From the NCBI GenBank assembly GCA_027078745.1, contig JALWWO010000002.1:1-64000 (forward strand): a DNA stretch of 64,000 nt, given 5' to 3'. Position numbers and translations under genes: made by a program. Numbering within the stretch: position 1 is the first letter of the stretch; every line of letters begins with the position of its first letter. The stretch is from Chromatiaceae bacterium (lineage in GTDB: Bacteria; Pseudomonadota; Gammaproteobacteria; Chromatiales; Chromatiaceae). Positions 1,499-12,201 of this stretch are shown here, in pieces. The notes beneath the pieces were generated by a model. That model did not search any database, was not told the DNA's origin, and saw nothing but the letters and a program-made list of their open reading frames with translations.

Positions 1499-1527
1499 TA
1501 GCCCAAGAGGTTCTGCATCTTGGGCTA
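1499..1527. terminator. Convergent-gene inverted repeat
   Basis: Perfect 10-bp stem (TAGCCCAAGA / TCTTGGGCTA) with a 9-nt loop, between the stop of the Tim44-domain gene and overlapping the stop codon of the convergent DUF4340 gene. There is no long T tract on either side, so it could be a weak bidirectional terminator or an mRNA 3'-end stabiliser. Confidence 0.6.
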
Positions 1528-2292
1528 TTGAATCTCTTCCCAATCACGCATCCAAAGGGGCGGCTCCGCCACCGAGTAAATCAGACGCAGATCCAAACGA
1601 ATCCAATGCATACCATCCGGAGAGATGAGAAAGCGCAGAGATTTTTGTTGATCGTCTCTCAGTTCCAAAAGCTGCCCGCGGATCGGTGCTTTGCCGAGGG
1701 CAAGCACCTCTTCCGCCTTCAGCGCCTTCAATTCTTCTAGGGCACCCTGCGTCAGTCTTTCTCCTGCAAAAGTGCCTTGTATCGGGTGAAAGTCCAGAGG
1801 AACAAGTTGTCGAGAAACATAGGTTTCTGCCGGCGCGATGAGGTGGGGATAGAACCCATCCCCGATGAGAAAAGCTCGCCCCTCCCGCGCTACATATCGA
1901 TTACCCTCCGTGGGCTCGTTGTCGCCGAAGAGAATCGGAAGATTCTCTAGGGTTAGCGTGATCGCAGCAGGCGCTAATCCCAAGGTGTCCAAGGAAACCG
2001 TTTCTGGCATCGCCCGCAGAACCGGCGTGGCAGCGATGCGCACCAATTGTCGGATGCGTTCCTCATTTGCTTGGACTCGATAAGGTGCTTCCATGCGCCA
2101 GTGATCCCCCTTCCGAATCAGTGCAATCTCGGGTTGTCCCCTCCGCTCCAGTCGAATGCGCTCGATGGATTCCGGATGCAGTGCGGTGAGCTGAGGTACC
2201 CGTTGATCCCGTTCTAGTGCTTGTTGCACGGCCCAGCTGAGGAACAGGGCGATGGAGAGCAAAAGGAGATTGAGGAGCCAGCGGCAGGTCAT
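1525..2292 (-). CDS. DUF4340 domain protein of a Gld-type ABC locus
   Basis: 255-residue protein with one N-terminal membrane anchor (about 6-24) followed by a periplasmic DUF4340 region; 'GDHWRMEAPYRVQANEER' at about 54-71 is the family-like 'W.m..P....a....i' motif. The upstream extension of the frame was rejected because ATG at 2292 overlaps the GldG-like stop by 4 nt (ATGA), which suggests translational coupling. DUF4340 proteins commonly follow GldA/GldF/GldG-type ABC transporter genes. The molecular function is not established. It is the last gene of the operon. Confidence 0.88.
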   Translation of the reverse strand: MTCRWLLNLLLLSIALFLSWAVQQALERDQRVPQLTALHPESIERIRLERRGQPEIALIRKGDHWRMEAPYRVQANEERIRQLVRIAATPVLRAMPETVSLDTLGLAPAAITLTLENLPILFGDNEPTEGNRYVAREGRAFLIGDGFYPHLIAPAETYVSRQLVPLDFHPIQGTFAGERLTQGALEELKALKAEEVLALGKAPIRGQLLELRDDQQKSLRFLISPDGMHWIRLDLRLIYSVAEPPLWMRDWEEIQ

Positions 2293-3629
2293 GGGATTCT
2301 CCTCCGACGCCATCGGATCAGGAGCCCCAGGGAAGCGAAGAGCAGGGGAAGCACCACCAGGGCACCGATGCCGAGGAAGATACGAGCTGTATCGGTGAGT
2401 TGCAATGCCCGATCCTCTACCGCTTTCCGCGGTGCGATCTCCGCCCCTTCCGGAGTGGTGAGCCATCGCACCAGGCGCAAACCCAACGTCCCGTTCCCCC
2501 CTTGAGAAAGGGAAGCATTGCTGAGGAAATCCCCATCGCCTAAGAGTACTAACCGCTGCTCACCTCGGTCGCGCGGGCGGTGCAGGAACAGGGCCACCGC
2601 CAAGGGCCCGGGCTCCTCTCCCTTTTCCGCATCCCGCCGCACCACCCCTTGAATGGGGCCTGTTTCATTCCAGCTGTTTTCCAGGGTCTTCAAGGGAGTT
2701 TCCACTTCCCATCGGGGATCGGCTAAGGGACGATAGGCCCGAGTGCCTGGCAGGAGCACCGGGCCAAGGCCTTGGGTCCAATGCGGATCGCTGTCCGCTG
2801 GGATCAGGGCGATGCTGGGATCCTCGATATTGAGGCGACGCACATTGGCATCCACCAGAATGCCCGGCAGCGGGTGGATTCCGAGGAAATCCGCCAAAGG
2901 TTCCAAGCCGTTGAGGGGGCCCGGGTCCATGAACCACAGCAGATTCCCCCCCGCCTTCACGTATTCGATGAGCTGTTCCGCCTCCCCAGGGAACAGGGAA
3001 ATGAAGGGCATGGAGAGCACTAGGAGATCTGTATTATCGGGAATCTGTTGCTGCTCCAGGAGGTCCAGGGTTTGCAGGCGATACCCCTGTTCCCGAAGGT
3101 GCTGGGCGAAGCGGCTGAGATCTCCCGGGGCTGCTCCCTCCAATCGTCGCTCCCCATGTCCTTCTAAGAAAACGATCCAGGGCTTTCGCCTGCGGGAGAG
3201 GCGGGCGAGGGCGGCGGTCAAACTAGATTCGTTCAGCTGATTCAAGACTTCTCGGCGGTTTCCATAGGCGATCAGCGCCTGCCCAGGCTGAGAAATCCCC
3301 GCCGCTCTAGCCTGATCGGGAGCGATCTGGGGATCTACATATCGGCTCACCAGCCTGAGCCCCGCCGCCCGATAGCGCGCGAGCAGGGATTCTATCCATC
3401 GCGCCTGGGATTGATGCCGGTTCATAAACAAGGTGATTTGAACCGGTTGATCCAAGGTGGCGATGAGATCCAAGGTGGCGGGATGCAGAGTGTTGCGAGC
3501 GCTGGTCGTCCAGTCCCAAACCCGTTCCCAACGGGCGCTGAGCCAGCCTGCGAGCAACAGAATGATGGTCAACAGGAGGAAGAAAACGCCATCCGCGAGA
3601 CGGCGATTCAGTCGAGCATAGGTTCCCAT
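2289..3629 (-). CDS. GldG-like ABC transporter auxiliary protein
   Basis: 446 residues: N-terminal membrane helix (about 14-31), a long periplasmic part with the GldG/ABC_transp_aux fold (thioredoxin-like segment with 'ITLFMNRHQSQARWIESLL' near 65-83, then 'GNLLWFMDPGP' near 229-239), and a C-terminal membrane helix (about 416-438) ending in an Arg-rich tail. It belongs with the permease just upstream (7-nt gap) and the DUF4340 gene just downstream (4-nt overlap). Homologues work with an ABC-2 permease and ATPase in gliding bacteria and, more widely, in export or envelope processes with unknown substrates. No gliding function is implied here. Confidence 0.88.
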   Translation of the reverse strand: MGTYARLNRRLADGVFFLLLTIILLLAGWLSARWERVWDWTTSARNTLHPATLDLIATLDQPVQITLFMNRHQSQARWIESLLARYRAAGLRLVSRYVDPQIAPDQARAAGISQPGQALIAYGNRREVLNQLNESSLTAALARLSRRRKPWIVFLEGHGERRLEGAAPGDLSRFAQHLREQGYRLQTLDLLEQQQIPDNTDLLVLSMPFISLFPGEAEQLIEYVKAGGNLLWFMDPGPLNGLEPLADFLGIHPLPGILVDANVRRLNIEDPSIALIPADSDPHWTQGLGPVLLPGTRAYRPLADPRWEVETPLKTLENSWNETGPIQGVVRRDAEKGEEPGPLAVALFLHRPRDRGEQRLVLLGDGDFLSNASLSQGGNGTLGLRLVRWLTTPEGAEIAPRKAVEDRALQLTDTARIFLGIGALVVLPLLFASLGLLIRWRRRRIP

Positions 3630-3636
3630 AATGGGG

Positions 3637-4368
3637 CTAGGGCAGCTGTTGGTTGGCGAGTTGCCGATGGCTGAGGGCGAGGAAAAAAACGGTGAAGAGG
3701 AAAAAATACAGGAGATCCGACCCGCGCACCATGCCCATCAAAAAGCTGAACAGATGTTCGTTCCAGGATAGCCAGGCGAACAGGGTGCCGGTTGCTTCCC
3801 CGCCGGTATTGCCGATCACCGATAGCAGGATCAAGATGCCGTAGGCGAGCACCGCCGCAACTCCGGGTTGCTCCGTGCAGCTAGAGGCGAACAGCCCTAC
3901 GGCAGCGAACAAGCAGGCGCAGAGACCAAGCCCCAGGGTTGCCGCCGCCAGTAGCCCAAGATCCAGGGGAGCGAACTGAGCGAGCAGCACGCCCAGCAGC
4001 AGGGGCAAGCAGGCCAGGGGAATGAGCACCGCCACCAACCCCAAAAACTTACCCAACAGGATTTCCAGCAGGCTGAGGGGCGCCGCATTCAACAGGGCGA
4101 AAGTCCCTTCCCGCCGCTCTCCGCTGATCAGCCCCATGGCGAGAGGGGGCGCGGAGAGCAGGAGCAGCACGGCGCCGAACCCGAAGAGATGGAAGCTCAA
4201 CGTCAGGGTCAAACCCATGCCCCGCTGGGCTGCTTCCAGGGCAGAGAACCGTTCCAACACCCCCAGGAAAATCCAGCCTAGAATCCCCTGATTGGCAGCC
4301 AGTAACCCCCAAGCCAGGGGGGAGAAAAAAGTCCGCTGCCATTCCCTGCGGGCGAGGGTGAGGATCAT
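3637..4368 (-). CDS. ABC-2 family permease, GldF-like
   Basis: 243-residue polytopic membrane protein with about six hydrophobic segments. It has the ABC-2 permease N-terminus 'ARREWQRTFFSPLAWG' (about 6-21) and the conserved 'LISGERREGTFALLNAAPLS' stretch (about 80-99). It is the membrane channel partner of the ATPase at 7790-8704 and the GldG-like gene that follows. The gene begins 27 nt after the Argonaute stop codon. Just upstream of its ATG is a short copy of the ATPase 3' end (4364-4391), suggesting that the ATPase and permease genes once overlapped as ATGA. Confidence 0.9.
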   Translation of the reverse strand: MILTLARREWQRTFFSPLAWGLLAANQGILGWIFLGVLERFSALEAAQRGMGLTLTLSFHLFGFGAVLLLLSAPPLAMGLISGERREGTFALLNAAPLSLLEILLGKFLGLVAVLIPLACLPLLLGVLLAQFAPLDLGLLAAATLGLGLCACLFAAVGLFASSCTEQPGVAAVLAYGILILLSVIGNTGGEATGTLFAWLSWNEHLFSFLMGMVRGSDLLYFFLFTVFFLALSHRQLANQQLP

Positions 4369-4391
4369 AAAATTTCTCCCGCGAGCGCTCG
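4364..4391 (-). repeat. Insert-flanking imperfect direct repeat, permease copy
   Basis: Twenty-two of 28 positions match 7789-7816. Read in the ATPase frame on the minus strand, it encodes RALAGEIL and stop, against RAIAGEIS and stop at the true ATPase end. It lies between the Argonaute stop codon and the permease start, so it looks like the residue of a former ATPase-permease junction or a regenerated gene 3' end. Confidence 0.75.
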
Positions 4392-4395
4392 GCAG

Positions 4396-6594
4396 TCAGA
4401 GCCAAAAGGGAATGTTCCCCTCTAAATCCTTCGGCTTAATCCCATGCAAGGCTAAATAACCTATTCTATCACTGTAATGAACGGTAACCGGTAATTTAGG
4501 TTGTATCTGAGAACCATAATGCAGCAGCGTCAAGGAAAGAACGGAATGGATTGCTTGTTCTATCGTAAAGGGTGCTTCCGTTCTTATGTATAGAGGTTGC
4601 GGCGTTGCTGTTCTAAATGGAGGAAGCGACGAAACCAATAAGGCTTCCCGTGCATTGAGCTTAAACGCCGTTCCTTTCTCTGGCTGTTGGATGTCTATCT
4701 TGCTACCTTTCTCTGGCTGTTGGATGTCCATCTTGCTACCTTTCTCTGGCTGTTGGATGTCCATCTCGCTACCTTTTTGCTGTTGCTCATGATAAATTGC
4801 ACGATAAATTCTTGGCGCGCCTGATTTGCGGATTTCAACGAGATAGAAGGTAGCCCCGAGTTCTTCCGCCAAGCGATGCAACGCCTGTTTTTCGTTGCCT
4901 CGAAAGGGTCCGTCGCGGTGAATCACAACACGCTTCCCTGCGAAGGTATCAGCCGGGAATAAGCTATGCAACACAGTGTCCGGGATGGTCTCTCCTTCCA
5001 AGGGTGCATCGTGGATAGCATACTGCAGGAGTTCACCGTTGTTGAAATAGATTCTTGCCGTGGCTGCTACATTCATCGAACCGGCTAAGTTTTGTTTTCT
5101 CTCCCTAGCGATGTCGATGCCGACGACCAGATCCGCATAGGGCAAGGGATCTGCCAGCACAAAGGGAATGTTTCCGGTCTTTCCGAGTATACCCAACGCG
5201 ACATTCCAGAGAGCATATTGCGTGTTCAGTGTCGAATGATCAATGACCTGACCGGCTATATTACGCCCTATGGTTAAGGATTTGAAATGACCATAGAACC
5301 AATCATCGCCTTCTTCATCGTTTTCTTTAAAATCAGGGAAGATCGCTACAATAACATCCGGTTTTTTCTCCTGAAGTCGGTTGATCGATTTTTCAATGCT
5401 GACCCTTGACAGGGTCATAACCTGCTCTTGACCGACAAATTTCAGACGGACCCCAAGCGTTGATAGAATCTCTCTAATTTGTTTACCAAAATTCGTTTCT
5501 GGAATGGGTGGCCGTCGGGCATCGATTACGCCCATCGAGATGGTTTCCGTACGCCGTTTGTACAGGCCATATTTCTGAAGATACTGGAAAACCTCCTTAT
5601 CTGAACAGGTCTGATTGTTCCCAACCTGGATCTTTGGGGTAAACTCGACATCTTCGCCGCGCAGAAATCGTTCTGGGTAGTGCCGAGAGCTATAAAACTT
5701 ACCCTCAATTCCGTGCAATTCACACAGCCGAGTCCGAAGCTCACGGATCATTTCAAACCGATGCTTAGGCGCGATCCGAAACGCATTGAGCGCTTTCTTC
5801 GAATCCACGCCAAATTTAGAAAGATAACCGGTCATCAAGACCACCTTCAGGGCACTGACAGGATAATCATAATAATTCTGTCCGTGTCGAATTTTGACAA
5901 CCCATTCATTCTCTGGTGCATTTTGAAGGAATAGCTGCATCCTTTTATCGGATGAGGTGGCGAGCAGTCGTTGGCGGTGGTCCTTCATGAGTCCAACAAC
6001 ATTCACAATCTCCCCTTTGAAGTCCTGTTCTTTGACGAGCACCCAAATGCCCAACAATTCTTGAGGATCTTGCAGGGTAGCTGCATAGGCTTTCAGATCC
6101 TTCTTGTAAATTAGATTCGACGAAATGGAAAGAGAAATTGCGGGTTCATCCCCCACCGCCCATCCTCGGAGATCACAGTTCCGTTCCACATAGGCGGGAC
6201 CAAGATCTTTTTCCTCTGTTTGTAAAATAGCTTGGGTTTGCTTTCGGAAATCGGCTAAGATTCCGTTGCTAAAAAAATCTGCAATCTCTTTTGGTGTACT
6301 TTGCCAAGCCGGGTACGGCGTGATCTTGTAGAGATGGGTAAACGGATCGGGTTCTCTTCGCCACAAGCTTTCCAATGCCTTCTGAAATGCCTCTTCAGAT
6401 TGTTCAGCATCGGAGATGAGCTTAGAATTACTCCAAACCCAGTTTCCAGGGAAATGTTGCCGCAGGCGATAGGACAGTTTTCCACCGATCTTTTTGGCGC
6501 TGTTATTTTCTCCGATGATTAAATGATATGCAAACAGCTTAGGTAAGCTATCCGTATCCACAGGTATCAATTCTGTAAAGATTATATCCTGCAT
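4396..6594 (-). CDS. ago: Long prokaryotic Argonaute, predicted active nuclease
   Basis: 732-residue Argonaute: N and L1 region (about 1-125), PAZ-like and L2 region (about 126-330), MID (about 335-485), PIWI (about 486-732), ending in the hydrophobic PFWL typical of Argonaute C-termini. The MID motif Y434, K438, Q449, K472 has the +4, +11, +23 spacing of the set that binds the 5'-phosphate end of guides in TtAgo-type proteins. The catalytic DEDX tetrad appears complete: D494 (VGIDIAR), E535 (EGETI), D561 (IHRDG), D709 (HYSDR). Guide-directed cleavage of DNA or RNA and a role in defence against plasmids or phage are inferred from the family. An 11-residue unit occurs three times at 608-640, between D561 and D709. 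GC content is clearly lower than in the flanking genes, and no strong Shine-Dalgarno site is seen. Transfer is likely. Confidence 0.93.
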   Translation of the reverse strand: MQDIIFTELIPVDTDSLPKLFAYHLIIGENNSAKKIGGKLSYRLRQHFPGNWVWSNSKLISDAEQSEEAFQKALESLWRREPDPFTHLYKITPYPAWQSTPKEIADFFSNGILADFRKQTQAILQTEEKDLGPAYVERNCDLRGWAVGDEPAISLSISSNLIYKKDLKAYAATLQDPQELLGIWVLVKEQDFKGEIVNVVGLMKDHRQRLLATSSDKRMQLFLQNAPENEWVVKIRHGQNYYDYPVSALKVVLMTGYLSKFGVDSKKALNAFRIAPKHRFEMIRELRTRLCELHGIEGKFYSSRHYPERFLRGEDVEFTPKIQVGNNQTCSDKEVFQYLQKYGLYKRRTETISMGVIDARRPPIPETNFGKQIREILSTLGVRLKFVGQEQVMTLSRVSIEKSINRLQEKKPDVIVAIFPDFKENDEEGDDWFYGHFKSLTIGRNIAGQVIDHSTLNTQYALWNVALGILGKTGNIPFVLADPLPYADLVVGIDIARERKQNLAGSMNVAATARIYFNNGELLQYAIHDAPLEGETIPDTVLHSLFPADTFAGKRVVIHRDGPFRGNEKQALHRLAEELGATFYLVEIRKSGAPRIYRAIYHEQQQKGSEMDIQQPEKGSKMDIQQPEKGSKIDIQQPEKGTAFKLNAREALLVSSLPPFRTATPQPLYIRTEAPFTIEQAIHSVLSLTLLHYGSQIQPKLPVTVHYSDRIGYLALHGIKPKDLEGNIPFWL
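4675..4773 (-). repeat. Three 33-bp tandem repeats inside the Argonaute PIWI domain
   Basis: Three head-to-tail 33-bp units (4675-4707, 4708-4740, 4741-4773) that keep the reading frame and encode GSEMDIQQPEK, GSKMDIQQPEK and GSKIDIQQPEK (residues 608-640). The units differ by only one or two bases, so the expansion is recent or maintained. They lie in a loop after the conserved 'RKSGAPRIYR' strand of PIWI and before the fourth catalytic residue. Confidence 0.95.
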
Positions 6595-6689
6595 GATACA
6601 TGCGGCCCTAATGTCGTATGGAAAACTATTTAGACAAGCTGAAAGCGGCTGGTCGCAGCTCGACGGAATTTTTCAATTGTTCCGAGCGT

Positions 6690-7664
6690 TTAAGCAGAAC
6701 GGATTCGATCTGTAATACTTGCCTCTTCAACCCCAATCGAAAACAGACTTGTGCCGGTGTGGACTAATGCATTGCTTCTCAGCTGAATCAATCTACCGTC
6801 CAACGGCGCGACCACGTTCGTTTGTTTCAGGAGATCCAGGGCGACCAGTTCGCCGATCTTATCCCCCTTTTGTACTTCACTCATCAGGGGTGCAGTAGGT
6901 ATCCAGATACCCGCGCTGTCCGAATAAATCGGTGTACGGTGAAAAGCAGGAGGAGAAGCGTTGGCTGGCATCGCATCGATCACGCCGACGCATTTGGCGA
7001 CTTCGATCAATCCTTCCGCTGCTTTCTGAATTTCCTGGGGAGATAAAACAACGAGTTGGGAAGTTTCCACAGCGAACCCGGGCACGCCTTTTTTTGCCAG
7101 AGCTGCTAACAGGGTACCGGAATATTGTATCTCATTCGGGACAGAAAAATTCAGCGCCCAGACGATCGCAGGGGAAAAGGCACGGATTCCTTTCAGGCTC
7201 CTCCGATCAATCGCCCTATCTTCATGAGGCAAGTATATTGCCATGATGGGTGTGTTCATCTTAAATTCGTGGAGATCTACCACGAAAGATACTTGAGACA
7301 GGTATTCACATAATTGATACGCTAACCGCTCGGTAAACGTGCCTTTGGGCTTCCCCAAGCCGCTGCGATTCAGATCGTAGAAATCCATCAGTCCCACCCG
7401 AGTGCCGGTAGACTGAGCAAATGGATTGGCCGCTGTAATGATGCTAACCGATCCCTTCAGAGATCTGCCGAGCATCTCCCGCACGAAGATCCGGCTGATT
7501 GCTAAACTAGCCGTCTCATCCCCATGAACGCCACACAATACGGCTAATCGGGGCTCGCCGGTTCCTATCGTTACAACGGGCACACGGATATCCAAACTCC
7601 CGATCTGTCCAATTTCGAGATATGAAGTCGCAATCAGGCCGGTTGTCATTATCCTTTTCCCCAC
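6690..7664 (-). CDS. Succinylglutamate desuccinylase/aspartoacylase family deacylase
   Basis: 324-residue M14-type zinc deacylase. Zinc-ligand motif H47-x2-E50 (CGVHGDE) and H132 (DLHE) are present, as are the substrate-site elements NPFAQ (80-84) and DLNR (97-100). The C-terminal quarter has the barrel-sandwich-like domain usual for the AstE/AspA family (KGDKIGELV... near 266-300). Members cleave N-acyl groups from amino acids or related amides; the substrate here is unknown. It precedes the Argonaute gene by 95 nt in the same orientation, and both lie inside the insert that splits the ABC operon. An alternative ATG lies at 7649. GC content is intermediate (one hand-counted line gave 50%). 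Confidence 0.85.
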   Translation of the reverse strand: MGKRIMTTGLIATSYLEIGQIGSLDIRVPVVTIGTGEPRLAVLCGVHGDETASLAISRIFVREMLGRSLKGSVSIITAANPFAQSTGTRVGLMDFYDLNRSGLGKPKGTFTERLAYQLCEYLSQVSFVVDLHEFKMNTPIMAIYLPHEDRAIDRRSLKGIRAFSPAIVWALNFSVPNEIQYSGTLLAALAKKGVPGFAVETSQLVVLSPQEIQKAAEGLIEVAKCVGVIDAMPANASPPAFHRTPIYSDSAGIWIPTAPLMSEVQKGDKIGELVALDLLKQTNVVAPLDGRLIQLRSNALVHTGTSLFSIGVEEASITDRIRSA

Positions 7665-7788
7665 TTGACTAGAGTTTTCGTACCATTAACCCAATAACAT
7701 TGGACTGCGAAACATTCAGAGGTAACTTGCCCCCTGAGCGAATCAACCCGAGTTTTCATGGATCCCTCACGAGAAGAGCATGAGGCGA

Positions 7789-7816
7789 ATCATGAAATTT
7801 CCCCCGCAATTGCCCG
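7789..7816 (-). repeat. Insert-flanking imperfect direct repeat, ATPase copy
   Basis: This is the 3' end of the ABC ATPase gene, including its TGA embedded in ATGAT. It matches 4364-4391 at 22 of 28 positions in the same orientation. Together the two copies bracket about 3.4 kb that contains only the deacylase and Argonaute genes. Confidence 0.75.
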
Positions 7817-8704
7817 AAAGAATAGTTGCTCTAGATCCGTGCGCGCTGGGCTGAGTTCACAGAGCCCCCAGCCCTGTTCCACGATCTGTTTCGCCAGTGC
7901 GGAAATCGGCTGTTCGGACCGGTATTCCAGGGAGAAGAAGCCCGCTTCCTGACAGGGCTGGATCTGTTGAACACCGGGCAGTTGCGCGAGCACGGAAAGA
8001 TCGGGGGGATTTTCCAAACCCAAGCGATAGCGATGTTCCGATGCAGTGGAAAGCCGACTTTCATGCAGTACCCGCCCATTTTGCAGGATCAACACCCGCT
8101 GACAGACCGCTTGGACTTCGGACAGCACATGACTGGAAAAGAGAATTCCGCAATCGCAGGCGAGTTCCCCGATGAGCTGGGCGATCTCTTGTCGTTGCAG
8201 GGGATCCAAGCCTTCCGTAGGTTCATCCAGAATCACCAGGGCGGGTTCGTGCACGATGGCTTGGGCGATCCCCACCCGCTGCCGATAGCCTTTGGATAGC
8301 TTCCAGATGGGATAGCGGGCCACCTCCGTCAGCTGACAGCGCAGCAGCACCCGATCCAAAGCTTCCCGCTGCTCGGCTCTACTGAGCCCGCGGAGGCGGG
8401 CGCAATAGGTTAGATATTCCTGAACCCGCATGTTGCGGTAGAGAGGCGGACGCTCCGGCAGATAGCCCAGATGCCGCTTGGCCCGTCGCGGAGATCGCAC
8501 CAGATCCAAACCCAGAATCCGAATGCGGCCCTGGGTCGGGCGCAAGGTGCCGCTGAGCAGCCGCAAGCAGGTGCTCTTTCCCGCTCCGTTGGGTCCTAGC
8601 AAACCCAGCACATCCCCGGTTTCCAGCTTCAGGTTGAGGGGATGGAGCGCAGGGAAATCCCCATACGAGCAGGATAGGTTTTCCGCGATCAGCAGGCTAT
8701 CCAT
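7790..8704 (-). CDS. ABC transporter ATP-binding protein, GldA-like
   Basis: 304-residue ABC ATPase. Walker A GPNGAGKST (about 37-45), a signature of the LSKGYRQR type (about 138-145), Walker B with LVILDEPTEGLDP (about 158-170), and a C-terminal extension of about 90 residues as in GldA/CcmA-like exporters. It starts 6 nt after the ClpV stop codon, so the two are probably co-transcribed. Its natural partners, the permease and GldG-like protein, lie 3.4 kb downstream beyond the Argonaute insert. The stop codon is part of an ATGA that would have overlapped the next start in the uninterrupted operon. Confidence 0.92.
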   Translation of the reverse strand: MDSLLIAENLSCSYGDFPALHPLNLKLETGDVLGLLGPNGAGKSTCLRLLSGTLRPTQGRIRILGLDLVRSPRRAKRHLGYLPERPPLYRNMRVQEYLTYCARLRGLSRAEQREALDRVLLRCQLTEVARYPIWKLSKGYRQRVGIAQAIVHEPALVILDEPTEGLDPLQRQEIAQLIGELACDCGILFSSHVLSEVQAVCQRVLILQNGRVLHESRLSTASEHRYRLGLENPPDLSVLAQLPGVQQIQPCQEAGFFSLEYRSEQPISALAKQIVEQGWGLCELSPARTDLEQLFFRAIAGEIS

Positions 8705-8710
8705 CTGGGC

Positions 8711-11434
8711 TCATGCGGCTGCTTCGTTTTCGTCATAATCGAACTGGAATTCACCCCCGGCAACTTGGATCTGAATCCGACGCAGGGGGCGTTCCTCCGA
8801 GAGACGGGATAGGATTTCCCGACTGATCTGGGGGAGCAAGGTATTGGTGAGGATGGCATCCACCACCCGCGCGCCGCTCTCCACCTCCCGGCAGCGCTCA
8901 GCGATCCGATCCACCACCGCATCTTCATAGTTCAAAGTGATCTGATGATTCTCCGCAATGCGCTGCCGGATGCGATCCAGTTGCAGCCGAATGATGTCGT
9001 TGAGCACCGCATCGCTGAGGGGATAGTAAGGCACCACCACCAGCCGCCCGAGCAGGGCCGGCGGGAAGACCTTGCGCAGGGGTTCCCGCAGGGCTTGGGC
9101 GATGCCCTCCGGTTCGGGCATCAGCTCGGGATCTTTGCACAGGCTCAGGATGAGATCCGTGCCCACATTGGTGGTGAGCAAGATCAGGGTGTTGCGGAAA
9201 TCGATATAGCGGCCTTCTGCATCTTCCATCCAACCCTTGTCGAACACCTGGAAGAAGATTTCATGCACATCGGGATGGGCTTTCTCCACCTCATCCAGCA
9301 AGATCACGCTGTAGGGGCGCCGGCGCACTGCTTCCGTGAGGAGGCCCCCTTCTCCATAGCCCACATAGCCAGGCGGTGCGCCCTTGAGGGTGGAAACCGT
9401 ATGGGCTTCTTGGAACTCGCTCATGTTGATGGTGATGATGTTCTGCTCACCCCCGTAGAGGGCTTCCGCTAGGGCGAGGCCGGTTTCCGTCTTGCCCACG
9501 CCGGAGCTGCCCGCCAGCAGGAAGACACCGATGGGTTTGTTGGGATCGTCCAACCTGGCTCGGGAGGTCTGAATTCGACGGGCGATCATCTCCAAGGCAT
9601 GGCGCTGACCCAGCACCCGTTTTTCCAGGGTATCCGCCAAGCTGAGCACCGCGCCGATTTCGTCTTTCATCATGCGGCCTACCGGAATACCCGTCCAATC
9701 GGCCACCACCGAGGCCACGGCCTGCGCGTCCACGCTGGGCAGGATCAGGGGGGTTTCTCCCTGCAAATCGGCCAGCTGGGCTTGCAAGGCTTCCAGTTCC
9801 TGGAGCAGGGCCGCCCGATCCTCTTCTTCGGGATTCGCGCCTTCTTCCTGGGCTTCCGTAGCTTGCGCTTCGGGAGCAGCTTCCACGGTGCCGAAGGCCG
9901 CCCGCAGCCGCTTCCGAAGTTTCAGAATCTGTTCCACCAGGGCCAATTCTTCCTGCCAACGGGATTCCAGCGCTTCCAAGGTTTCGGCAGTTTCCGCCAG
10001 GGCCTTCTGCACGCGGCCTTCCCGTTCGCCAACCTCCACCCCCTGGGCTTTTTCCCGCTGAATGATGGCGAGCTCTGTTTCCAGCGCTTCCCGCCACCGC
10101 CGCGCGTCTTCCACCGCCGCCGGCACCGCCTGTTGACTGACCGCAACCCGAGCGCAGGCGGTATCCAGCAGGCTCACCGCTTTATCTGGCAGTTGCCGAG
10201 CGGGAATGTACCGGTGAGAGAGCTTGACCGCCGCTTCCACCGCCTCATCCAGCAGCTGCACCCGATGATGATTTTCCAGGGTGCTCACAATGCCCCGCAT
10301 CATGCGGATGGCGCTGGGCTCATCGGGTTCCTGGACCTGCACCACCTGAAAGCGGCGGGTCAAGGCGGGATCCTTCTCGATATACTTTTTATATTCCGAC
10401 CAGGTGGTCGCGGCGATGGTGCGCAGGGTGCCCCGCGCCAAGGCGGGTTTCAGTAGATTCGCCGCATCTCCGGTGCCCGCCGCTCCTCCAGCGCCGATGA
10501 GGGTATGGGCCTCATCGATGAACAGGATGACGGGCTTGGGGGAGGCTTGCACTTCTTCAATGACCTGCCGGAGCCGCTGTTCAAACTCTCCCTTCACGCT
10601 GGCACCCGCCTGCAACAGCCCCACATCCAACACCCGCAGGGAAACTTCCTGGAGGGGTGGGGGCACTTCCTTCGCAGCGATGCGGGCGGCGAATCCTTCC
10701 ACCACCGCCGTCTTGCCCACCCCTGCTTCCCCGGTGAGGATGGGATTGTTCTGGCGGCGGCGCATGAGGATATCTACGATCTGCCGGATTTCCTCCTCCC
10801 GTCCGATCACCGGATCCAATTCCCCCTTGGCAGCCCGTTCCGTGAGATCCACGGAGAAGCGCGCCAGGGCTTCCCCTTTCCCCCCGAGTGCCGGCGCAGC
10901 GGCGGCTTCCCCCGCTGAAGCAGGCAACTGAGTTCCGTCGGTAGCGCGCAGGGCTGTTTCCGGCGAATCTTCGACGATCTTTCCGAAGCGCTCGCAAAGG
11001 TCATCCAGCTGGATCTTATCGAACTCTCGGGACATGGCAGGCAGGGCATTGCGCAACCCGGGGGTTTTGAGAATGCCTACTACCAGATGACCGGTGCGCA
11101 CCTGAGAATCTTGAAACAGCAAGGTGCTGTAGACCCAGCCCCGTTCTACCGCCTCTTCCACATGGGAAGAGAGATCGGAAATAGAGGTGGCCCCTCGGGG
11201 CAGGCGATCCAGGGCAGCGGTGAGGTCCTTAGCCAATCGTGCCGGGTTCAAGTCATAGGCGGCGATGATCCGGTGGAGATCCGAGTTCGGGAGCTGGAGG
11301 ATCTGATGGAACCAATGCACCAACTCCACATAGGGATTCCCCCGCATCTTGCAGAACAGGGTAGCGCTTTCGATGGCCTTGAAGCCCAAGGGATTGAGCT
11401 TGGAAAACAGCGCGGCACGGCTGATGTCTTTCAT
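8711..11434 (-). CDS. clpV: ClpV/TssH-type AAA+ unfoldase
   Basis: 907-residue Hsp100 protein with two AAA+ modules: first Walker A GEAGVGKTAVVEGFA, second Walker A GSSGVGKTETGLALAEALYG. A middle coiled-coil with Glu/Gln/Ala-rich heptads lies between them. The N-domain begins with 'LNPLGFKAIESATLFCKMRG', the TssH/ClpV form rather than ClpB, so the family role would be disassembly of contracted type VI secretion sheaths. No other type VI gene is present in the window. Instead it is followed after 6 nt by the GldA-like ABC ATPase. ClpV assignment is firm; whether it serves a secretion system here is unknown. Confidence 0.88.
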   Translation of the reverse strand: MKDISRAALFSKLNPLGFKAIESATLFCKMRGNPYVELVHWFHQILQLPNSDLHRIIAAYDLNPARLAKDLTAALDRLPRGATSISDLSSHVEEAVERGWVYSTLLFQDSQVRTGHLVVGILKTPGLRNALPAMSREFDKIQLDDLCERFGKIVEDSPETALRATDGTQLPASAGEAAAAPALGGKGEALARFSVDLTERAAKGELDPVIGREEEIRQIVDILMRRRQNNPILTGEAGVGKTAVVEGFAARIAAKEVPPPLQEVSLRVLDVGLLQAGASVKGEFEQRLRQVIEEVQASPKPVILFIDEAHTLIGAGGAAGTGDAANLLKPALARGTLRTIAATTWSEYKKYIEKDPALTRRFQVVQVQEPDEPSAIRMMRGIVSTLENHHRVQLLDEAVEAAVKLSHRYIPARQLPDKAVSLLDTACARVAVSQQAVPAAVEDARRWREALETELAIIQREKAQGVEVGEREGRVQKALAETAETLEALESRWQEELALVEQILKLRKRLRAAFGTVEAAPEAQATEAQEEGANPEEEDRAALLQELEALQAQLADLQGETPLILPSVDAQAVASVVADWTGIPVGRMMKDEIGAVLSLADTLEKRVLGQRHALEMIARRIQTSRARLDDPNKPIGVFLLAGSSGVGKTETGLALAEALYGGEQNIITINMSEFQEAHTVSTLKGAPPGYVGYGEGGLLTEAVRRRPYSVILLDEVEKAHPDVHEIFFQVFDKGWMEDAEGRYIDFRNTLILLTTNVGTDLILSLCKDPELMPEPEGIAQALREPLRKVFPPALLGRLVVVPYYPLSDAVLNDIIRLQLDRIRQRIAENHQITLNYEDAVVDRIAERCREVESGARVVDAILTNTLLPQISREILSRLSEERPLRRIQIQVAGGEFQFDYDENEAAA

Positions 11435-11760
11435 GGCGATGGAATACAGGCTAACCGAGAAGAGCGGTGTAGTACCTTAACGGAATAGTAGAGAATTTTC
11501 CTGTTAAAGACAAAGCATCAGGATAAGATGGTATTTCTTATAGGTAGATTTAGGCAACTTTCTGGAAGCCTAGAATTAGGCTTAAGAAAGCACTGTATTC
11601 GATTGAATCGCATTTTAAATTTTAAGATGAAGTAGTATACTTCATTGTTCGGGTCAATCCCTATTCTATGAATTCTTCCTTGACAGATCTTCTACCGTGT
11701 CTTACCCTTGAAATTAATCCGTATTATACCCTCGTTATACAACGAGGAAGGGGAGCGACC
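11435..11760. other. AT-rich intergenic region between clpV and a secreted-protein gene
   Basis: Divergent promoter region, visibly richer in A and T than its surroundings. A TTGACA-like hexamer occurs at 11680-11685 but no well-spaced -10 was found. It contains the ribosome binding site AAGGGGAG just before 11761. A frame open from 11668 is regarded as untranslated leader. No gene or RNA recognised. Confidence 0.5.
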
Positions 11761-12201
11761 ATGGGGCTGAAGAAAGTTTTTCATCTGGGCATTTTGATTT
11801 CTAGTGTATTGACACCTGGGTTAACGTTAGGGGGAGAATATACAGATCAAGTGAAGGTGCAGCTAGGTTTGATCAAGCTCGTTGGGCTGGCAGAAGGATG
11901 GGAAGAAACGCACAACGATAAATTTGATCGATTAGACGAAGGCGATTCCGATCTGTTCAGTTTTACGTTGCGCAAGGGGAAATCTTATAAGATCATCACT
12001 GCATGCGATAATGATTGCTCAGATATTGATCTCATTTTATACGATGAGAACGATAACGAGATAAGTCGGGATACGAGTACGGATAGCTTGCCGATCGTAG
12101 ATGTTCGTCCAAAGTGGACCGGGAAATTTAAGCTCAAGGTGAGAATGTATTCCTGCAGCAATAACCCCTGTTACTATGGAATCGCTATCTTAGGCCGGTA
12201 A
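11761..12201 (+). CDS. Secreted PPC-domain-like protein
   Basis: 146 residues with a signal peptide (about 1-22, hydrophobic core LGILISSVLTPGLTL). The mature part has the order typical of bacterial prepeptidase C-terminal (PPC) domains: 'GDSDLFSFTLRKGKSYKI', then 'DIDLILYDENDNEIS', ending in beta strands. Four cysteines (two pairs, ACDNDC and CSNNPC) suggest disulfides in the periplasm or outside the cell. PPC domains usually sit at protease C-termini; here the domain stands alone. The start was chosen for its strong AAGGGGAG site and signal peptide. Base composition is lower in GC than the neighbours. No specific function can be given. Confidence 0.65.
   Translation: MGLKKVFHLGILISSVLTPGLTLGGEYTDQVKVQLGLIKLVGLAEGWEETHNDKFDRLDEGDSDLFSFTLRKGKSYKIITACDNDCSDIDLILYDENDNEISRDTSTDSLPIVDVRPKWTGKFKLKVRMYSCSNNPCYYGIAILGR

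Follow-up and report, generated by a model that had tools for sequence, protein, structure and literature searches.

How did a prokaryotic Argonaute (pAgo) and a deacylase come to lie between the ATPase and permease genes of an ABC operon, and is one the partner of the other? The question is raised by a locus in the first 64,000 nucleotides of a 194-kb contig of a Chromatiaceae bacterium (C2:1-64000; the window, meaning the whole stretch analysed), from a 2.18-Mb assembly in 24 contigs that is 97% complete and 0.24% contaminated. Read along the minus strand, the genes follow one another in this order:

8711..11434, minus strand: TssH/ClpV1-type AAA+ ATPase gene, native in composition (NCBIfam TIGR03345, 1275 bits, above cut-off)
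7790..8704, minus strand: GldA-like ABC ATPase (PF00005, E=1.2e-30; TIGR03522, 238 bits, below the equivalog cut-off)
6690..7649, minus strand: AstE/AspA-family zinc deacylase, 319 aa (PF24827, E=2.5e-17)
4396..6594, minus strand: long-A prokaryotic Argonaute, 732 aa (Pfam Piwi, E=4e-11; PADLOC PDLC02396; PDB CtAgo 9iad)
3637..4368, minus strand: GldF-like ABC-2 permease (PF12679, E=2.1e-11; TIGR03518, 84 bits, below the equivalog cut-off)
2289..3629, minus strand: GldG-like ABC auxiliary protein (PF09822, E=4.4e-20)
1525..2466, minus strand: DUF4340-like protein (PF14238, E=8.5e-4, weak and below cut-off)

The genes from the ABC ATPase onward, their order and their single direction had been given in a preliminary description of this DNA, and they are borne out by the open reading frames (ORFs) and profile matches. 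The DUF4340-like ORF overlaps the GldG ORF, and its start is uncertain. At the other end, the TssH/ClpV1-type gene, also on the minus strand, ends 6 bp before the ABC ATPase gene starts and is probably the first gene of the transcription unit; the flanks of the relatives' ABC operon loci gave no match to it. This T6SS ATPase gene sits apart from the VipB/TssC match of the genome, which is on another contig (C10). The neighbouring genes examined around the locus are of the chromosomal housekeeping type, with nearby matches to isocitrate dehydrogenase, ClpA, DnaK-DnaJ-HrcA, NAD kinase and multihaem cytochromes, and with PEPCK read from the sequence.

A first search found the ATPase and permease genes adjacent in the 28 relatives where both could be placed, mostly with an ATGA overlap. 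In a larger family sample, which re-draws many genomes of the first search, 99 genomes besides the source matched both proteins, the two matches falling on separate contigs in one of them. As the preliminary description had supposed in calling the junction normally uninterrupted, empty sites are found throughout: in all 98 same-family genomes whose ATPase and permease genes share a contig, the two also share a strand and their matched regions are 5-290 bp apart (≤56 bp in 96 of the 98), and none carries a second insertion at the junction. The closest sampled relative, with an ATPase ~60% and a permease ~63% identical, is likewise uninterrupted. Given that the two genes are adjacent in relatives and 3.4 kb apart here, with the gap filled by the AstE/AspA gene and the Argonaute (both ORFs intact), the AstE-Argonaute segment is an insertion.

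The base composition of the segment is in line with this reading. Whole-gene GC is 46.6% for the Argonaute and 50.9% for AstE, against 60.8% for GldG and 59.0 ± 2.3% for 34 other ORFs of the window. Codon usage, a comparison that had been suggested beforehand, is atypical in the Argonaute (z=-3.0) and AstE (z=-2.75) and not in the flanking ATPase, permease and GldG genes (z from -0.2 to +0.9). The composition of the two genes is foreign, then, and that of the flanks is native. The GC contrast drawn in the preliminary description holds in its direction, by whole-gene GC as well as codon usage, but not in its size, which the single-line values used there overstate. Elsewhere in the window, on the plus strand, a 177-aa ORF (11668-12201) with a GC content of 43%, a codon-usage z of -3.0 and an N-terminal signal-like sequence matches nothing in Pfam or NCBIfam at E<=0.001, and is possibly another acquired gene.

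The insertion has left a visible trace, a short direct repeat at its two ends:

7789..7816, minus strand: left copy of a 28-bp imperfect direct repeat, made up of the last ATPase codons (RAIAGEIS*) and ATGAT
4364..4391, minus strand: right copy, an ATPase-tail fossil that in the ATPase frame reads RALAGEIL* and overlaps the start codon of the permease

The outer coordinates of the repeat coincide with the ends of the interval 4364-7816 singled out in the preliminary description, in which the repeat itself does not appear. The two copies are ~76% identical and contain the last codons of the ATPase, its stop and the overlapping ATG of the permease. The ATPase ends in CGGGCAATTGCGGGGGAAATTTCATGAT, and the right copy, CGAGCGCTCGCGGGAGAAATTTTATGAT, lies upstream of the permease start, 4 bases after the Argonaute stop. 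Of the 23 bases before its ATGA, 17 match the ATPase tail, the best value among the 591 ATGA sites of the window on both strands (the next has 14). The ATPase tail and the fossil are identical at 17/24 positions, while against the junction of the closest relative the values are 8/24 and 5/24. Since neither copy resembles that junction, the two share a recent origin: either the insertion duplicated the sequence or a close donor supplied it. Owing to the duplication of the junction, the C-terminus of the ATPase is retained, as are the start codon and ribosome-binding region of the permease, and the doubling of the overlap between the two genes accounts for how the operon may have survived the insertion. 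Two other candidates were rejected: a permease N-terminal fossil in the left flank beyond ATGAT, where 15/30 bases from the ATG match with the shared ATGAT included, and a paralogous ABC operon (contig C18) as the source of the repeat, as its tail differs.

Taken together, the empty sites, the atypical composition and the flanking 28-bp repeat support the earlier proposal of foreign cargo inside a conserved operon. The reading that we consider likely as a whole is that 3.4 kb of foreign DNA, with an AstE-family gene and a long-A Argonaute of the stand-alone kind, would have been acquired by horizontal transfer and integrated exactly where the ATPase and permease genes of a Gld-type ABC operon overlap, and there would have left the 28-bp imperfect duplication of the junction; it would probably be transcribed from the operon, the Argonaute serving as a lone DNA-targeting nuclease and the deacylase being a passenger. 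An assembly artefact, with a contaminant fragment joined into the operon, would also give an insert whose composition differs from that of its flanks. Its probability is nevertheless negligible, as the DNA on either side is part of a single conserved operon whose gene ends are intact, the locus is internal to a long contig of a nearly complete assembly with little contamination, and ATPase-tail codons are present in the repeat on both sides.

The favoured reading assumes one insertion event for both genes. That the Argonaute and AstE reached the junction separately, in two independent insertions, is suggested by their somewhat different GC contents, by the lack of AstE beside the Argonaute relatives, and by the 95-bp spacer between the two genes and the ~140 bp that precede AstE. 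We think this unlikely, because only one flanking repeat pair was found and no extra copy lies between AstE and the Argonaute.

How a single segment might have entered is a further matter. The insert holds only two substantial sense ORFs, and no integrase, transposase or other mobility gene was found among its ORFs; of the marks of a mobile element, the flanking direct repeat and the empty sites are thus present, and an integrase or transposase of its own is missing. Incoming DNA can supply a replacement gene end, as in the case of prophage e14 at icd. By analogy, the 28-bp repeat could reflect site-specific integration into the 3' end of a protein-coding gene, with the incoming DNA giving the replacement end and the integrase lost or acting in trans. 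The repeat does restore the ATPase frame, and in its coding part 4/6 differences fall at third codon positions; moreover, GC3 in the last 100 ATPase codons is 0.574, against 0.701 for the rest of the gene, when the mean difference in relatives is 0.010 (sd 0.053). The GC3 drop and the third-position differences weakly hint that part of the ATPase end arrived with the insert. A drop of comparable size is seen in the ATPase of one relative, however, the insert is without an integrase, and no second insertion occurs at this site among the 98 genomes, so that site-specific integration of this kind is a doubtful, though conceivable, route.

Scans for terminators and promoters gave matches no more numerous than in shuffled sequences, and a comparison with Rfam brought up no RNA family. 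As all genes of the insert and of the operon share one direction, the cargo is probably co-transcribed with the operon, that is, the Argonaute and AstE would be read through from the host operon. If this is true, the locus illustrates how transferred defence genes that lack a promoter get expressed.

The Argonaute is full-length, with its catalytic residues intact, and a long-A pAgo by sequence, curated models and predicted fold. The PADLOC pAgo model PDLC02396 matches it with 815 bits over model positions 3-683 of 683, and its best sequence match in the PDB is CtAgo (9iad, E=5e-78). The catalytic tetrad of the PIWI domain (DEDX: D494, E535, D561 and D709) is invariant across 25 aligned sequences. 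By alignment position, the 5'-phosphate pocket of the MID domain (YK...Q...K type) consists of Y434, K438, Q449 and K472, of which the Q and K472 are invariant and the Y nearly so in the same alignment; the class of MID motif follows PMC6299218. An AlphaFold2 (AF2) model (pLDDT 86.2) aligns over the full N-PAZ-MID-PIWI length with CtAgo, AaAgo and CbAgo (TM 0.66-0.78), CtAgo being the best fold match in the PDB (TM 0.78). One part of the protein has no counterpart of such length in the other aligned homologues:

4673..4776, minus strand: 33-bp tandem repeat, 3.2 copies with 97% matches, in frame in the Argonaute ORF (KGSxMDIQQPE repeats)

It encodes an insertion in a PIWI loop of low AF2 confidence; the repeat looks recent, and its copy number could be variable.

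Based on the catalytic tetrad, the MID residues and the fold, the Argonaute is most likely a stand-alone, DNA-guided nuclease of defence, which would act alone to limit foreign DNA by guide-directed DNA targeting, as characterised relatives do. Its closest well-described counterparts are the long-A pAgos CtAgo (9iad), SeAgo and AaAgo, with which it shares the four-domain full-length fold, the intact DEDX tetrad, the YK-type MID motif, a distribution that is patchy and horizontally spread and, in many cases, the lack of a conserved partner. Structure alignment gives ~27% identity with CtAgo, and identity with the aligned homologues is 29-48%; unlike that group, the Argonaute lies inside an ABC operon beside AstE and carries the tandem-repeat PIWI insertion. 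It is, in short, a long-A Argonaute of a known kind with modest novelty and an unusually clear insertion footprint, and the locus offers a well-resolved example of a stand-alone Argonaute captured within a conserved overlapping operon.

The distribution of the gene is sparse. Among the 92 genomes searched (its own included), 90 are without it, the two carriers being the source and Thiospirillum jenense (G019), in which the Argonaute is at a different genomic site and without AstE. In the tree, the Argonaute of the window groups weakly with an Anaerolineaceae sequence (85/88), and that of Thiospirillum groups strongly with another Anaerolineae sequence (100/100). As the two Chromatiaceae proteins stand apart, each beside a Chloroflexota sequence, they look like separate acquisitions. 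That pAgos spread horizontally is well established (PMC6299218). A scan of genome contigs and viral contigs with the single Argonaute sequence returned nothing; an alignment query returned 71 related genome loci and, from viral contigs, 0 loci.

The neighbour of the Argonaute is, by sequence and predicted fold, a member of the AstE/AspA family of zinc enzymes. Its AstE_AspA catalytic domain (PF24827) scores 63.5 bits against a cut-off of 25, the metal ligands and catalytic Glu (H42, E45, H127 and E195) are invariant in the AstE alignment, and the best Foldseek matches of a modest AF2 model (pLDDT 68.8) are AstE/AspA-family structures. DoeB (6twm) and the Rhodobacter protein 3cdx have in common with it the fold (Foldseek), the catalytic-domain Pfam match and the metal and catalytic residues, although identity is 20-30% and the scores are far under the NCBIfam equivalog cut-offs (DoeB, 42.9 vs 402.7; AstE, 12.2 vs 305.65). 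It is most likely a metabolic passenger that would hydrolyse some N-acyl amino acid or a substrate resembling a peptide. Searches of plasmids (best ~29% identity), 92 relatives (~31%) and 251 Chloroflexota genomes (~30%) turned up no close homologue, 274 genomes of the same class had none at E<=1e-20, and a scan of viral contigs gave nothing.

The notion that the deacylase is a partner enzyme of the Argonaute, put forward in the preliminary description, finds no support in a search for recurrent pairing. No AstE relative was detected near any of the 71 related Argonaute loci (up to ~6 kb on each side, less at contig ends), and none is detectable at the Argonaute locus of a Nostoc plasmid (L060), which makes 72 related loci without the pair in a screen of related Argonautes. 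In the 16 genomes with the closest Argonautes, 15 are without a detectable homologue and one has a weak match, 23% identical. The recurrent linkage to related Argonautes that characterises an Argonaute-partner defence operon is thus absent. The pAgo operon survey PMC6299218 mentions neither AstE nor an acylase in its main text, and the literature search found nothing relevant linking Argonaute to an aspartoacylase or desuccinylase. With AstE missing from related loci and most of the closest-Argonaute genomes, and from the main text of the survey, the partnership is unsupported.

A two-gene defence system, with the deacylase as effector or processing enzyme, would fit the adjacency of the genes, their common strand and their foreign composition, and the intact active-site residues of AstE argue that it is no decaying pseudogene. 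It is nonetheless very unlikely in view of this lack of recurrence, and the Argonaute keeps its own catalytic tetrad, which makes a separate effector unnecessary. Similarly improbable is a new kind of two-gene defence module that would couple a zinc deacylase to the recognition of targets by a cleavage-competent long-A Argonaute. The passenger role of the deacylase is the preferred reading, and the locus cautions that not every neighbour of a pAgo is its partner.

In known pAgo operons with nucleases and other effectors (Cas4/PD-(D/E)XK, PLD, SIR2, TIR), a gene on the same strand precedes the Argonaute, as it does here and in the Nostoc plasmid; unlike in those operons, a deacylase takes the place of a nuclease or NADase at the present locus, and this neighbour is non-recurrent. 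On that mobilizable plasmid, of Nostoc sp. CENA543 (L060 3147-6199), the relative position of AstE is occupied by another neighbour, a PD-(D/E)XK nuclease gene that precedes the related Argonaute and overlaps it. Downstream of two cyanobacterial relatives of the Argonaute lies one and the same pair of small genes (L061 8204-8828 and L062 8171-8801), which encode a 73-aa protein and a PIN-like protein of 138-139 aa and resemble a toxin-antitoxin pair.
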